This document shows positions 9,940 through 34,133 of a DNA stretch of 36,858 nt, piece by piece. Each line of letters opens with the position of its first letter. Position 1 is the stretch's first letter. A program made the translations under genes and the position numbers. The stretch is from NCBI GenBank assembly GCA_003402745.1, contig QQND01000026.1, forward strand, positions 1 to 36,858. The letters are read 5' to 3'. Origin of the DNA: Verrucomicrobiota bacterium. Its GTDB lineage: Bacteria; Verrucomicrobiota; Verrucomicrobiia; Chthoniobacterales; Chthoniobacteraceae. Below the pieces are notes generated by a model. It was not told the DNA's origin and made no database searches. It was given only the letters and a program-made list of their open reading frames with translations.

Positions 9940-9945
9940 GGAGGT
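9940..9945 (+). promoter_or_regulatory. strong Shine-Dalgarno of the GH57 gene
   Basis: GGAGGT lies 5 bases before the ATG at 9951. It is one of only two strong ribosome-binding sites seen in the window and confirms that start. Confidence 0.8.
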
Positions 9946-9950
9946 AGGGC

Positions 9951-12104
9951 ATGGCGCACGCGGTATTTCTATGGCATATGCACCAACCCTACTATGTGAA
10001 CCCAGCATCTCGCACGGCGATGATGCCCTGGGTCCGGCTCCATGCGGTCAAGGGTTACTTGGACATGGTTTCCATCTTGGATGAATTCCCTGAGATGCGG
10101 GTGAATTTCAACATGACGCCCGTGCTGCTACTGCAGATCATTGAGCTCTCGGAAGGGCGTGTCCATGACTTATGGATGGATTGGGCGCGGAGGCCGGCGG
10201 CGCAGTTGGAGGAGCACGAGAGGCTTGCGATTTTGGAGAATTTTTTCAAAATCCATTGGGAGAACCTCGTCAAACCCTTCCCCCGCTATTGGGAACTCCT
10301 GAACAAGCGCGGGCTTGCTTTTGAGCGCGAGGAGGCGCGCCGGGAATTGCGTTACTGGTCACTGCAGGAGTTTATCGACCTGCAAACGTGGTTCAATCTC
10401 GCCTGGTGCGGGTACACGGCGGAACGGCTGTATCCGGAACTCGGGGAGTTGAAGCGCAAGGGGCGGCATTTTTCTGAGGGCGAGAAAAACAGGGTATTGG
10501 ACATTCATCAGGAGATTCTCGGGAAAATCATCCCTCTGTACCGGGAGGCTGAGAAACGCGGGCAGGTGGAGATTACCACCACTCCGTTTTTCCATCCGAT
10601 CCTTCCGCTCGTGTACGACAGCGACTTTGCCGAGCGAAGCATGCCTGGGCGGCAGCTTCCCAAGCGTTTTCAGTGGCCGCAGGATGCCTTGGCGCATTTG
10701 AAAATGGCGGTGGAACAACACACTGAGCTTTTCGGGAAGGCTCCGCGCGGGCTCTGGCCCAGCGAGGGTTCCATCGCGCCGGAACTCGTGGCATTGATGC
10801 AGGAGGCGGGGATCCGCTATTTTTGTTCCGACGAGGAAAATCTTTTTCGTTCGTTGGAAAAGGATCCGGCTTTTCGGGGGAAGCCGGTGAATCATTTGGA
10901 AATGTTTCAGGGCTGGAGGGTGGAGCACGATGGCGCCTCGGTGCAGGCCGTGTTCCGCGAAAAGCCGCTCTCGGACTTCATCGGGTTCATGGCTGCGAAA
11001 AACCGTCCCGAAGATGCAGCTGCCCACCTGCTGCATCATCTGTCCAATATCGCCCGGGCCCTGCCAAAAAAAACAGGGGTGATTCCGCTCATTTTGGACG
11101 GAGAAAATGCCTGGGAAACCTTTCCAGACGGAGGGCAGGGGTTCCTGCGGGCGCTTTACGCCGGGGTTTTGAAGGAGCCCCTGCTGCAGTCCTCCACGAT
11201 CGAGGAGTATCTGGCCTTGGAGCCGCCCGCGAAAACGGTCCATATGCTTCACACAGGCTCCTGGATATCGAGCAACTTCGACATTTGGATTGGTGAGGAA
11301 GAAGAGAACCGGGCGTGGGATCTTTTGGGAGAGACGCGGCTTTTTTTACAGAGCCAGCTGGATGCCGGCCAACTCACCGCTGAGCAGCAAAAGGCCGCGT
11401 TGCTTGAGGTTTATGCCGCCGAGGGAAGCGACTGGTTTTGGTGGTACGGGCCGGATTTTTCGACTGAAAACGACGCTCTTTTTGACGACCTGTTCCGCCA
11501 GCACCTCAAAAACGTCTACACCCTCTGTGGCAAACTGCCCCCGGCGCGGATGGAGGAACAAATCACGGCAATGCGCGTCGCCCCCCTGTACAGCACGCCC
11601 GAGCGTCTCGTGAGCCGCGAGCTGACGGGGCGGCGCTCCTCGTACTTTGATTGGATGGGTGCGGGATGTTACGTCGCGGGCAGCGAGCAGGGGGCGATGT
11701 ACCGGTCCGGCCGAATGTTGAAGCGGTTTTTTTTCGGAAACGACATCGAGTTTCTCTACCTGCGCTTGGATCCGATTCGGTGGGAGAACCTTTCGGTGCG
11801 GCTTGAGTTTCATGGGGAGTTCCCTGGGGTGATTGAGCTATCCAATCTGGACAAAGGCGGGCAGGGCACCTTTGTGTGGCACTCGGCGGACGGTGAACAA
11901 ACTGAATACCAGGGGCTTGTGGCTCGGGACGTGGTGGAACTGGAGGTGCCGCTTTCTCTGCTAGGGCTCAATGGGGACGCGGCGGTGCGCTTTCAAGTGA
12001 AGGTGTTTGAGGGCGGGCTGGAGCGGGAGTGCTATCCGGAGCGCGTGCCGATTGAATTCAACCTTACGCGGCGGGAATACGCACTGGAGCATTGGATGGT
12101 TTGA
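9951..12104 (+). CDS. glycoside hydrolase family 57 protein (alpha-glucan active)
   Basis: 717-residue retaining alpha-glucan hydrolase or transferase of family GH57, probably acting on glycogen or maltodextrins inside the cell because no signal peptide is present. Conserved blocks are HMHQPYYV near residue 9 (metal/substrate-binding histidines), the nucleophile E272 in GLWPSEGSI, and the general acid D383 in ILDGENAWE. A C-terminal beta-rich region of roughly 150 residues (from about residue 560) follows the catalytic barrel. The subfamily (amylase, 4-alpha-glucanotransferase or other) cannot be settled by eye. Its start is fixed by GGAGGT 5 bases upstream. It stands alone, divergent from the metal-binding-like protein gene, 193 bases apart. 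Confidence 0.88.
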   Translation: MAHAVFLWHMHQPYYVNPASRTAMMPWVRLHAVKGYLDMVSILDEFPEMRVNFNMTPVLLLQIIELSEGRVHDLWMDWARRPAAQLEEHERLAILENFFKIHWENLVKPFPRYWELLNKRGLAFEREEARRELRYWSLQEFIDLQTWFNLAWCGYTAERLYPELGELKRKGRHFSEGEKNRVLDIHQEILGKIIPLYREAEKRGQVEITTTPFFHPILPLVYDSDFAERSMPGRQLPKRFQWPQDALAHLKMAVEQHTELFGKAPRGLWPSEGSIAPELVALMQEAGIRYFCSDEENLFRSLEKDPAFRGKPVNHLEMFQGWRVEHDGASVQAVFREKPLSDFIGFMAAKNRPEDAAAHLLHHLSNIARALPKKTGVIPLILDGENAWETFPDGGQGFLRALYAGVLKEPLLQSSTIEEYLALEPPAKTVHMLHTGSWISSNFDIWIGEEEENRAWDLLGETRLFLQSQLDAGQLTAEQQKAALLEVYAAEGSDWFWWYGPDFSTENDALFDDLFRQHLKNVYTLCGKLPPARMEEQITAMRVAPLYSTPERLVSRELTGRRSSYFDWMGAGCYVAGSEQGAMYRSGRMLKRFFFGNDIEFLYLRLDPIRWENLSVRLEFHGEFPGVIELSNLDKGGQGTFVWHSADGEQTEYQGLVARDVVELEVPLSLLGLNGDAAVRFQVKVFEGGLERECYPERVPIEFNLTRREYALEHWMV

Positions 12105-32577: not shown

Positions 32578-32605
32578 TTGACTACATGGGGGGCGCAAAG
32601 ATAGT
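32578..32605 (+). promoter_or_regulatory. sigma-70-like promoter of rpsU
   Basis: TTGACT (32578-32583) and GATAGT (32600-32605) with a 16-base spacer lie about 58 bases upstream of the rpsU start. Five of six and four of six consensus bases match. Confidence 0.5.
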
Positions 32606-32645
32606 TTGCACCTCACCCAAATAGTTGGGATCGAATCCTCGAAAG

Positions 32646-32653
32646 AAAGGAGG
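32646..32653 (+). promoter_or_regulatory. extended Shine-Dalgarno of rpsU
   Basis: AAAGGAGG, the full complement of the anti-Shine-Dalgarno core, lies 10 bases before the ATG at 32664. Most genes of the window have no such motif, so this one is exceptional and decides the start. Confidence 0.85.
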
Positions 32654-32663
32654 GAGATTTTAC

Positions 32664-32861
32664 ATGCCAGAAGTATCTGTACGCAAAGGTGAACCTATTG
32701 ACCGTGCCCTGAAACGCTTGAAGTCCAAAATGGAGAGCGAAGGGATTATGGAAGAGGTGCGCCGGCTGCGAGCGTTCGAAACGCCGACTCAGAAGACCAA
32801 ACGCAAAGCAAAAGCCAACGCCAAACGCGCCAAGGCTAAGCAGCGTTTCAATGCTTCCTAG
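32664..32861 (+). CDS. rpsU: 30S ribosomal protein bS21
   Basis: 65-residue small-subunit protein located near the 3' end of 16S rRNA. The pattern PEVSVRKGEPIDRALKRLKS and the following MEEVRRLRAFETPTQKTKRK are typical, and the C-terminal tail is Lys/Arg/Ala-rich (KANAKRAKAKQRF). Length is normal. The open frame extends 13 codons upstream, but the strong Shine-Dalgarno fixes ATG 32664. It has its own promoter-like site upstream and terminator downstream, so it is monocistronic. The strong ribosome-binding site in an otherwise Shine-Dalgarno-poor window suggests special translational control. Confidence 0.95.
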   Translation: MPEVSVRKGEPIDRALKRLKSKMESEGIMEEVRRLRAFETPTQKTKRKAKANAKRAKAKQRFNAS

Positions 32862-32911
32862 TCTGAGTCTAGTCTGAGTTCATCAGCGGCATCGTTCCGC
32901 AGCGGGTTTTG

Positions 32912-32947
32912 AAAGAAGCCGCCCTTCAAACAGGGCGGCTCTTTTTT
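32912..32947 (+). terminator. intrinsic terminator of rpsU
   Basis: AGCCGCCC (32917-32924) pairs perfectly with GGGCGGCT (32933-32940), 8-base loop, followed by CTTTTTT. The preceding A-rich GAAAGAA could let it act weakly for the opposite strand, where the regulator gene ends at 32946. Confidence 0.88.
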
Positions 32948-34133
32948 ATGCCCCACGGCCCGCGGTCGACTCCCGCCCCGCCTCCCCGTTCCTGTACGCC
33001 TGAGGTGAACAGCCATGTTTCTGCACAAAACACCGGTGGAGGTGGCGCACGCTCCCAAACCCGCAAGCCTCAGCCACCGTCGCCACCTTGCTCTCGCCCG
33101 AGACAAGGAGATGCGCCGCGCGTTCTAACCGCAACAGCAGCAACTGCCGTACTGGAGTGCGCCGCAGCTCATTTTTAAACGCGTACTGCAGTGCACGCTC
33201 CGACAACCCTGCTGCGCGCGCAATATCCCCAATCCCAATGGTCTCCTGGACCCTCGCGGTCATGAAGGCAAGCGCCTTCTGCACCCCAGGATGCGTGACG
33301 GCAAGACTATCGGTGCTGCGCCGCATGAACACGCCCCTCACAGGAACCAGTAGCGGTTCCCTCAAGGCCCCGGGATCGGTTCCTGCACAGGTGCCCTCCA
33401 TCACCTCCGCCAGAAGGGCGGCCGCCCGATACGCAATTTCACTCAAATTTTCGTCTATGCTAGAAATCGGCACCCGTGCGCATTCGCAGGCAAGCTCCAT
33501 GTTACCCACCCCCATGACCGCCACGTCCTCGGGGACCCGCAGTCCGAAATCCAAGCAGACATCGATGACATCCATCGCGACAACATCATCTAAAACAAAT
33601 ACAGCCAATGGTTTAGTGATGCTTTTAAGCTGCACTCCCAGCCACTCCCTGCGGTTGTCCCAAGTGTCCCTGCGCTGGGAAGTCTCCCCCATCCACTCCA
33701 GTACGTGGCAGCTCCGACCGGACGCCTGAAGTGTCTTAACAAACGCCTCGCGCCGACCCATTTCTGAGCGACCATGAGGCAGCCCTAGCCAGGCAAAATT
33801 TTGATGGCCTCGCTCCAAAAAGTGGACTGCTGCCAACCGCCCCACCTCGCCATTGTCCTCCTGAACGGAAGGAAAGCCCGCATACCGGTGGTTTGAACCA
33901 ATAAGCACGGTGGGCTGCAAGCGTATTTGATTCTCAATAAAACGTTTTATTCGAGGAACTTCCGTGTCGTTTGCAAGCATCCCGTCGCCCCGCCAGTAGG
34001 CCGGCAGCGCGGATTCTATCACCGCGCGCATTTCAAGGTGCCAACCTGCCTCCTTCGCATAACGTCCCACACCCTCGAGAATGCGCGGGTCGTGCCAGCC
34101 AAGGGCGATGAGGACGTTGCGTTTTGTTTTCAA
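32946..34133 (-). CDS. XylR-type transcription regulator (LacI-like sensor, AraC-type DNA-binding domain)
   Basis: 395-residue regulator. Residues 1 to about 270 resemble the periplasmic-binding-protein-like sensor of LacI/XylR proteins (KRNVLIALGWHDPRILEG, YAGFPSVQEDNGEVGRLAA, FVLDDVVAMDVID, VGVGNMELAC). Residues from about 285 form an AraC-type domain with two helix-turn-helix units (TIGIGDIARAAGLSERALQY and TVAEACGFGSVRHLHRCF, then SPQAYR). Xylose-type sugars are the usual ligands of this architecture, but the ligand here is unknown. The start is a TTG at 34133; no ATG exists near the family N-terminus. A palindrome at 34142-34158 lies just upstream. It is divergent from the secreted propeller and cytochrome/DUF1549 genes, which it may control. 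Confidence 0.9.
   Translation of the reverse strand: MKTKRNVLIALGWHDPRILEGVGRYAKEAGWHLEMRAVIESALPAYWRGDGMLANDTEVPRIKRFIENQIRLQPTVLIGSNHRYAGFPSVQEDNGEVGRLAAVHFLERGHQNFAWLGLPHGRSEMGRREAFVKTLQASGRSCHVLEWMGETSQRRDTWDNRREWLGVQLKSITKPLAVFVLDDVVAMDVIDVCLDFGLRVPEDVAVMGVGNMELACECARVPISSIDENLSEIAYRAAALLAEVMEGTCAGTDPGALREPLLVPVRGVFMRRSTDSLAVTHPGVQKALAFMTARVQETIGIGDIARAAGLSERALQYAFKNELRRTPVRQLLLLRLERAAHLLVSGESKVATVAEACGFGSVRHLHRCFVQKHGCSPQAYRNGEAGRESTAGRGA

Follow-up and report, generated by a model that had tools for sequence, protein, structure and literature searches.

Ribosomal protein gene rpsU carries a strong Shine-Dalgarno (SD) sequence in a stretch of bacterial DNA where most genes appear to start without one, and this raised the question of whether the site serves to regulate the gene's own product, bS21. 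It was demonstrated experimentally in F. johnsoniae that initiation on rpsU via its extended SD is faster with ribosomes that lack bS21, which results in feedback (McNutt et al. 2023, PMC9976891). So far, a Bacteroidota species is the only one in which such a bS21-based ribosome population has been shown to control one message. A sequence-only reading of the present DNA had suggested that the same logic may operate in its lineage. The window, the whole stretch of 36,858 nucleotides analysed here, was contig C26 of a 2.79-Mb metagenome-assembled genome (MAG) that was 69% complete and belonged to Chthoniobacteraceae (Verrucomicrobiota). The closest named rpsU loci were those of Chthoniobacteraceae/Spartobacteria, order Chthoniobacterales, in the same phylum.

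The rpsU transcription unit

The rpsU gene (32664..32861, + strand) encoded a bS21 of 65 amino acids (PF01165, E=2.8e-18), and one copy was found in the genome. A −35 element, TTGACT, was located at 32578..32583 (+), and its TTGAC did not vary among the 11 species of the genus. After an 18-nt spacer, the −10 element TAGTTT (32602..32607, +) was identified from the alignment of 11 congeners, with TAnnnT in most species. The promoter is thus predicted to be sigma70-like, and transcription would start near 32613-32616. On the 3' side of the gene, direct reading of the sequence gave a hairpin resembling an intrinsic terminator, GCCGCCC...GGGCGGC followed by TCTTTTTT (32918..32947, +). Since this hairpin closes the gene off, rpsU is read as a lone gene in a single-gene transcription unit, made up of the promoter, a leader of ~50 nt and the terminator-like hairpin. 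The convergent neighbour (32946-34133, − strand) was an AraC-type regulator with a Peripla_BP_3 sensor domain, an XylR-like architecture.

Pairing of the extended Shine-Dalgarno with the 16S tail

The letters at 32640-32666 were CGAAAGAAAGGAGGGAGATTTTACATG. The sequence-only reading had placed the rpsU site at AAAGGAGG, which was present at 32646-32653; the complementarity reached further, to the extended SD AGAAAGGAGG (32644..32653, +). This formed 10 uninterrupted Watson-Crick pairs with the congener 16S 3' tail CCUCCUUUCU, and its last G was 10 nt from the ATG. The congener tail used for the pairing was UCACCUCCUUUCU; the MAG itself contained no 16S gene, and the tail was taken from relatives. 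Inspection of 16S 3' ends, a check that the sequence-only reading had proposed, gave ...GGATCACCTCCTTTCTA in congener G005 and relatives, and the anti-SD GATCACCTCCTTTCTA was intact in G005 and six other relatives.

The energy of the rpsU SD was −19.3 kcal/mol as a stacking sum and −17.4 with RNAduplex. Pairing was scored against 16S nt 1532-1544, as in PMC9976891, using our own scripts in place of the authors' free_scan. Because G-U pairs were allowed and the stacking sums contained no initiation term, ranks and differences weigh more than absolute values.

Shine-Dalgarno use across the genome

SD use was examined in 1.97 of the 2.79 Mb, with ~1,325 called starts. Genes were called by a home-made dicodon caller that used no SD information, and mock windows were set further upstream. 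Starts at −8 kcal/mol or below made up 17.5% with coding-only starts and 12.0% with a second start model, against 21-22% of the mock windows. With coding-only starts, SD matches were below mock at each threshold as far as −11 kcal/mol and close to mock at the stricter ones, and with the second model they were below mock at nearly all thresholds. SD matches were therefore no commoner than mock, which bore out the earlier claim that most genes lack an SD. The genome-wide count and ranking suggested at that time placed rpsU first in an SD-poor genome. The longest perfect Watson-Crick complement at any other called start was 8 bp, compared with 10 at rpsU.

Among the partial set of ribosomal genes found in the source genome (G000), rpsU had the strongest SD (−19.3), followed by rplJ (−14.0), rplS (−11.0) and rpmB (−10.7), and the others were weak. 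When all plausible starts per gene were scanned, two ATG sites as strong as rpsU or stronger surfaced. One (C45:1515) lay within the coding start, with AKKGG codons, of a membrane protein that resembles FliL on a reading of its sequence without a family search. For the other (C40:15131), a better-supported start was located downstream. Neither was judged a real competitor of rpsU. The GH57 gene (PF03065; 9940-12104), the second gene for which a strong site had been claimed, was confirmed to carry GGAGGTAGGGC-ATG at 9940-9953, with the ATG at 9951. Across the whole window, GGAGG-N3-14-ATG was seen 18 times against 15.4 expected, which is the chance frequency.

Replication in a congener

The ranking was repeated in congener G006, for which 400 kb on one contig included rpsU and the S10/spc region. 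Here rpsU was again first (−19.3) among 271 starts and ~30 ribosomal genes; the next ribosomal gene was rplX at −13.2 kcal/mol, a gap of 6 kcal/mol, and the strongest other called start reached −15.3. SD was not enriched over mock in G006 either. The lead of rpsU over other ribosomal genes thus exceeded 5 kcal/mol in both G000 and G006. In contrast, rpsU of E. coli was 11th of 53 at −12.0, and 34/53 ribosomal and elongation-factor genes reached −8.

Moderate SDs (AGGAG, AAGGAG, GGAGGU) were also observed on G006 ribosomal genes of contig C76 at ~188000-204500 (L295-L297), in this SD-poor genome. With a cut-off of −9 kcal/mol, ribosomal genes other than rpsU showed moderate SDs in 12/27 cases versus 1/27 mock (p=9e-4). 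This excess suggested that some ribosomal genes probably make use of the anti-SD, and the 16S tail is probably not fully hidden in this genus. SDs on some other ribosomal genes have been reported for other Bacteroidia orders (PMC9976891), and in this respect the genus resembled those less strict orders, not Flavobacteriales.

Spread of the rpsU site among relatives

The exact 10-mer was kept in 9/11 species of the genus while the surrounding DNA diverged. In G002 it was replaced by AGAGAGGGG plus UGA, still at −17.7, which fits selection on pairing strength. G008 had a weaker site (−13.4). Genus g5, another genus of the same family, carried GAAAGGAGG (9 bp) in 5/6 species, and the site of genus g6 was AGAAAGGAAGGG. 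Imperfect extended sites (AGAAAGTAGGTGAA, ~−15) occurred in three other families; in f6, f7 and f9 the form was AGAAAGTAGGTGA or close to it, a pair of half-sites carrying one mismatch (~−15). Soil Udaeobacter-like loci had AGGAGTGAT or GAGGTGA forms, ~−8 to −15. The rpsU SD was weak or missing in two more genera of this genus's family, g3 and g9, and in families f3, f4 and f5. SD use in other genera was read from small pooled loci. Among 388 sampled genomes of the phylum, a survey limited to bS21 genes beginning ATGCCNGARGT and with genus g5 outside the sample, the strict pattern was found only in this genome. Judging from these sequences, the trait is patchy and not lineage-wide, and its full-strength form turned up here in two genera of a single family.

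The split site AGAAAG-T-AGGTGAA was conserved before rpsU in several other Chthoniobacterales families, with one mismatch inside a 12-13-nt tail complement (L088, L095, L103, L108, L142, L143, L146, L147, L149, L181, L184, L186, L259, L263).

bS21 feedback as a proposed use of the site

We consider bS21 feedback to be the most likely use of the extended SD, with a probability that we put a little short of even. A helix of 10 bp could form between the rpsU leader and the 16S 3' tail, and since most messages start without SD pairing, rpsU would gain privileged entry on 30S subunits whose tail is free. Subunits lacking bS21 would have a freer tail, would preferentially initiate on rpsU and would then be completed by its product, and complete subunits would use the rpsU message less. 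In this scheme, bS21 would restrain the 16S tail in this lineage.

For Bacteroidota, bS21 autoregulation was inferred where rpsU has the lowest pairing energy of the ribosomal genes and this energy lies below −13 kcal/mol (PMC9976891). Here, rpsU was the minimum, lay below that value and was found in an SD-poor genome with an intact anti-SD in its congeners. As in F. johnsoniae and other Bacteroidota, the rpsU SD was extended (9-13 bp) and first among ribosomal genes, SDs elsewhere did not exceed mock, and the 16S tail was identical, ACCUCCUUUCU. However, this genus belongs to another phylum, has moderate SDs on other ribosomal genes and leader hairpins of its own, and only part of its family has the trait; the regulation has been demonstrated there and is inferred here. 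The proteins also differ. Tyr54 is the residue of the anti-SD pocket that Bacteroidia bS21 stacks on A1534. The present bS21 had K54 in ungapped numbering, with no aromatic residue from 39 to 61, and F. johnsoniae bS21 (7jil) aligned with it over residues 4-46 only. The best-known tail contact is therefore removed.

The proposal of the same bS21 logic in this lineage was thus upheld in part. The SD-poor genome, the intact congener anti-SD, the top rank of rpsU in two species, the genus-wide conservation of its extended site and the agreement with the Bacteroidota pattern argued for it, but the absence of Tyr54, the moderate SDs in G006 and the weak or missing site in other genera did not fit. 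Equally strong sites on other ribosomal genes, which would have counted against that proposal, were not seen among those found in G000 and G006; 12/27 genes in G006 carried moderate SDs.

Chlorobia rpsU offers another parallel, having an extended SD in an SD-poor group, a bS21 without Tyr54 and an unproven mechanism; 11 other tail-contacting residues are conserved in Chlorobia (PMC9976891). In the parts of PMC10783764 that bear on Verrucomicrobiota, low SD use (about 10) is given for Spartobacteria, Akkermansia is SD-scarce and CCUCC is intact, and these parts hold no report of rpsU as an exception in the phylum. Our results suggest that the bS21 self-regulation proven in Flavobacterium may have its equivalent in another phylum, where bS21 is different, and the best reading of the locus is a putative rpsU control region that would work like the Bacteroidota one. 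The same signature with a bS21 lacking the key pocket residue, together with relatives lacking the signature, makes a useful comparison. It could reveal whether hiding of the tail requires Tyr54, and how loops of this kind appear and disappear.

The strong SD might instead be a high-output ribosome-binding site only, with no bS21 feedback, and we regard this as a serious possibility, if not a probable one. A lone short gene that lacks translational coupling has to supply bS21 at ribosomal stoichiometry, and a very strong SD may have been selected for this reason. The moderate SDs above mock on other ribosomal genes of the genus, the AAGGAGG of rplJ in G000 and the wide variation of the rpsU site across the order are consistent with such a role. 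However, rpsT, rpsO, rplI and rpsB have their own upstream regions and showed weak SDs or none, and the lead of rpsU in both genomes would be hard to account for. In addition, efficient initiation usually needs fewer than ten pairs.

Conserved elements of the rpsU leader

The leader was aligned using the window at 32616-32642 and ten congener loci (L084, L086, L087, L093, L099, L110, L244-L247). It contained a hairpin, P1 (CCCAA-AUAG-UUGGG, 32616..32629, +), which adjoined a TCGA-N4-TCGA element (32631..32642, +) in 9/11 species. When the offset was slid, P1 was found in 9/11 species at its real place and in 0-3/11 at all others. Its core pairs were kept in 45/45 cases with two-sided changes in all five, and the sequences differed by species (CCCAA/UUGGG, CCCUGA/UCAGGG, CACGU/ACGUG, GUUCAA/UUGAAC, CCCUCCU/AGGAGGG and others). 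Shuffling each sequence gave p of 0.001-0.15 for the nine hairpins; the significance of P1 is approximate because its position was picked after inspection of the sequences and several of the species are closely related. The two species without P1 were the two with an altered SD.

The TCGA pair was invariant in 11/11 species and may form a hairpin, P2, but the element showed no covariation and could equally be a DNA site. Followed by GGAGG, it was the only copy in 1.97 Mb. What is new here is an rpsU leader shared across the genus, comprising a sigma70-like promoter, hairpin P1 and the invariant TCGA-N4-TCGA just 5' of the SD. The simplest guess is that P1 acts as a 5'-end stabiliser or SD presenter, and under bS21 feedback the leader hairpins would serve to present the SD or to stabilise the message.

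It is unlikely, in our estimate, that rpsU is controlled mainly via this structured leader of P1, TCGA-N4-TCGA and SD, for example by bS21 or another factor binding to it. The fixed neighbourhood and two-sided changes of P1 and the invariant TCGA pair would suit such control. So would a CCUC overlapping the TCGA element, which in 5/11 species, the window included, could base-pair with the GAGG of the SD, a pairing that excludes P2. However, this SD-masking pair was missing in the remaining species, and genus g5 had the extended SD with no leader of this type. An Rfam search matched no family to the leader; its one hit, Thr_leader, was at chance level and fell on the terminator. In several RNAfold outputs, CCUCC-like letters on the 5' side of P1 paired with the SD; this pairing was set aside, as some species lack these letters and transcription probably starts at or downstream of them.

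A more specific form of bS21 feedback is a fair possibility, though less likely than not: the loop would have arisen separately in Verrucomicrobiota, with the tail restrained by contacts other than Tyr54 and the 10-bp SD presented by the conserved leader (P1 + TCGA-N4-TCGA), and related genera without the site would have lost it or never had it. Chance complementarity within a purine-rich stretch is very improbable: the two strands of the 1.97 Mb together held 39 ten-base tail complements, not above the reversed control, but any 10-mer of the tail complement is expected in only ~2e-4 of given 22-nt windows of this genome, and conservation in 9/11 congeners plus a 9-mer in another genus contradicts it. 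Further upstream, ~110-200 nt from rpsU, G006 carried a tandem array of GGATGAGCCAA units (L246).
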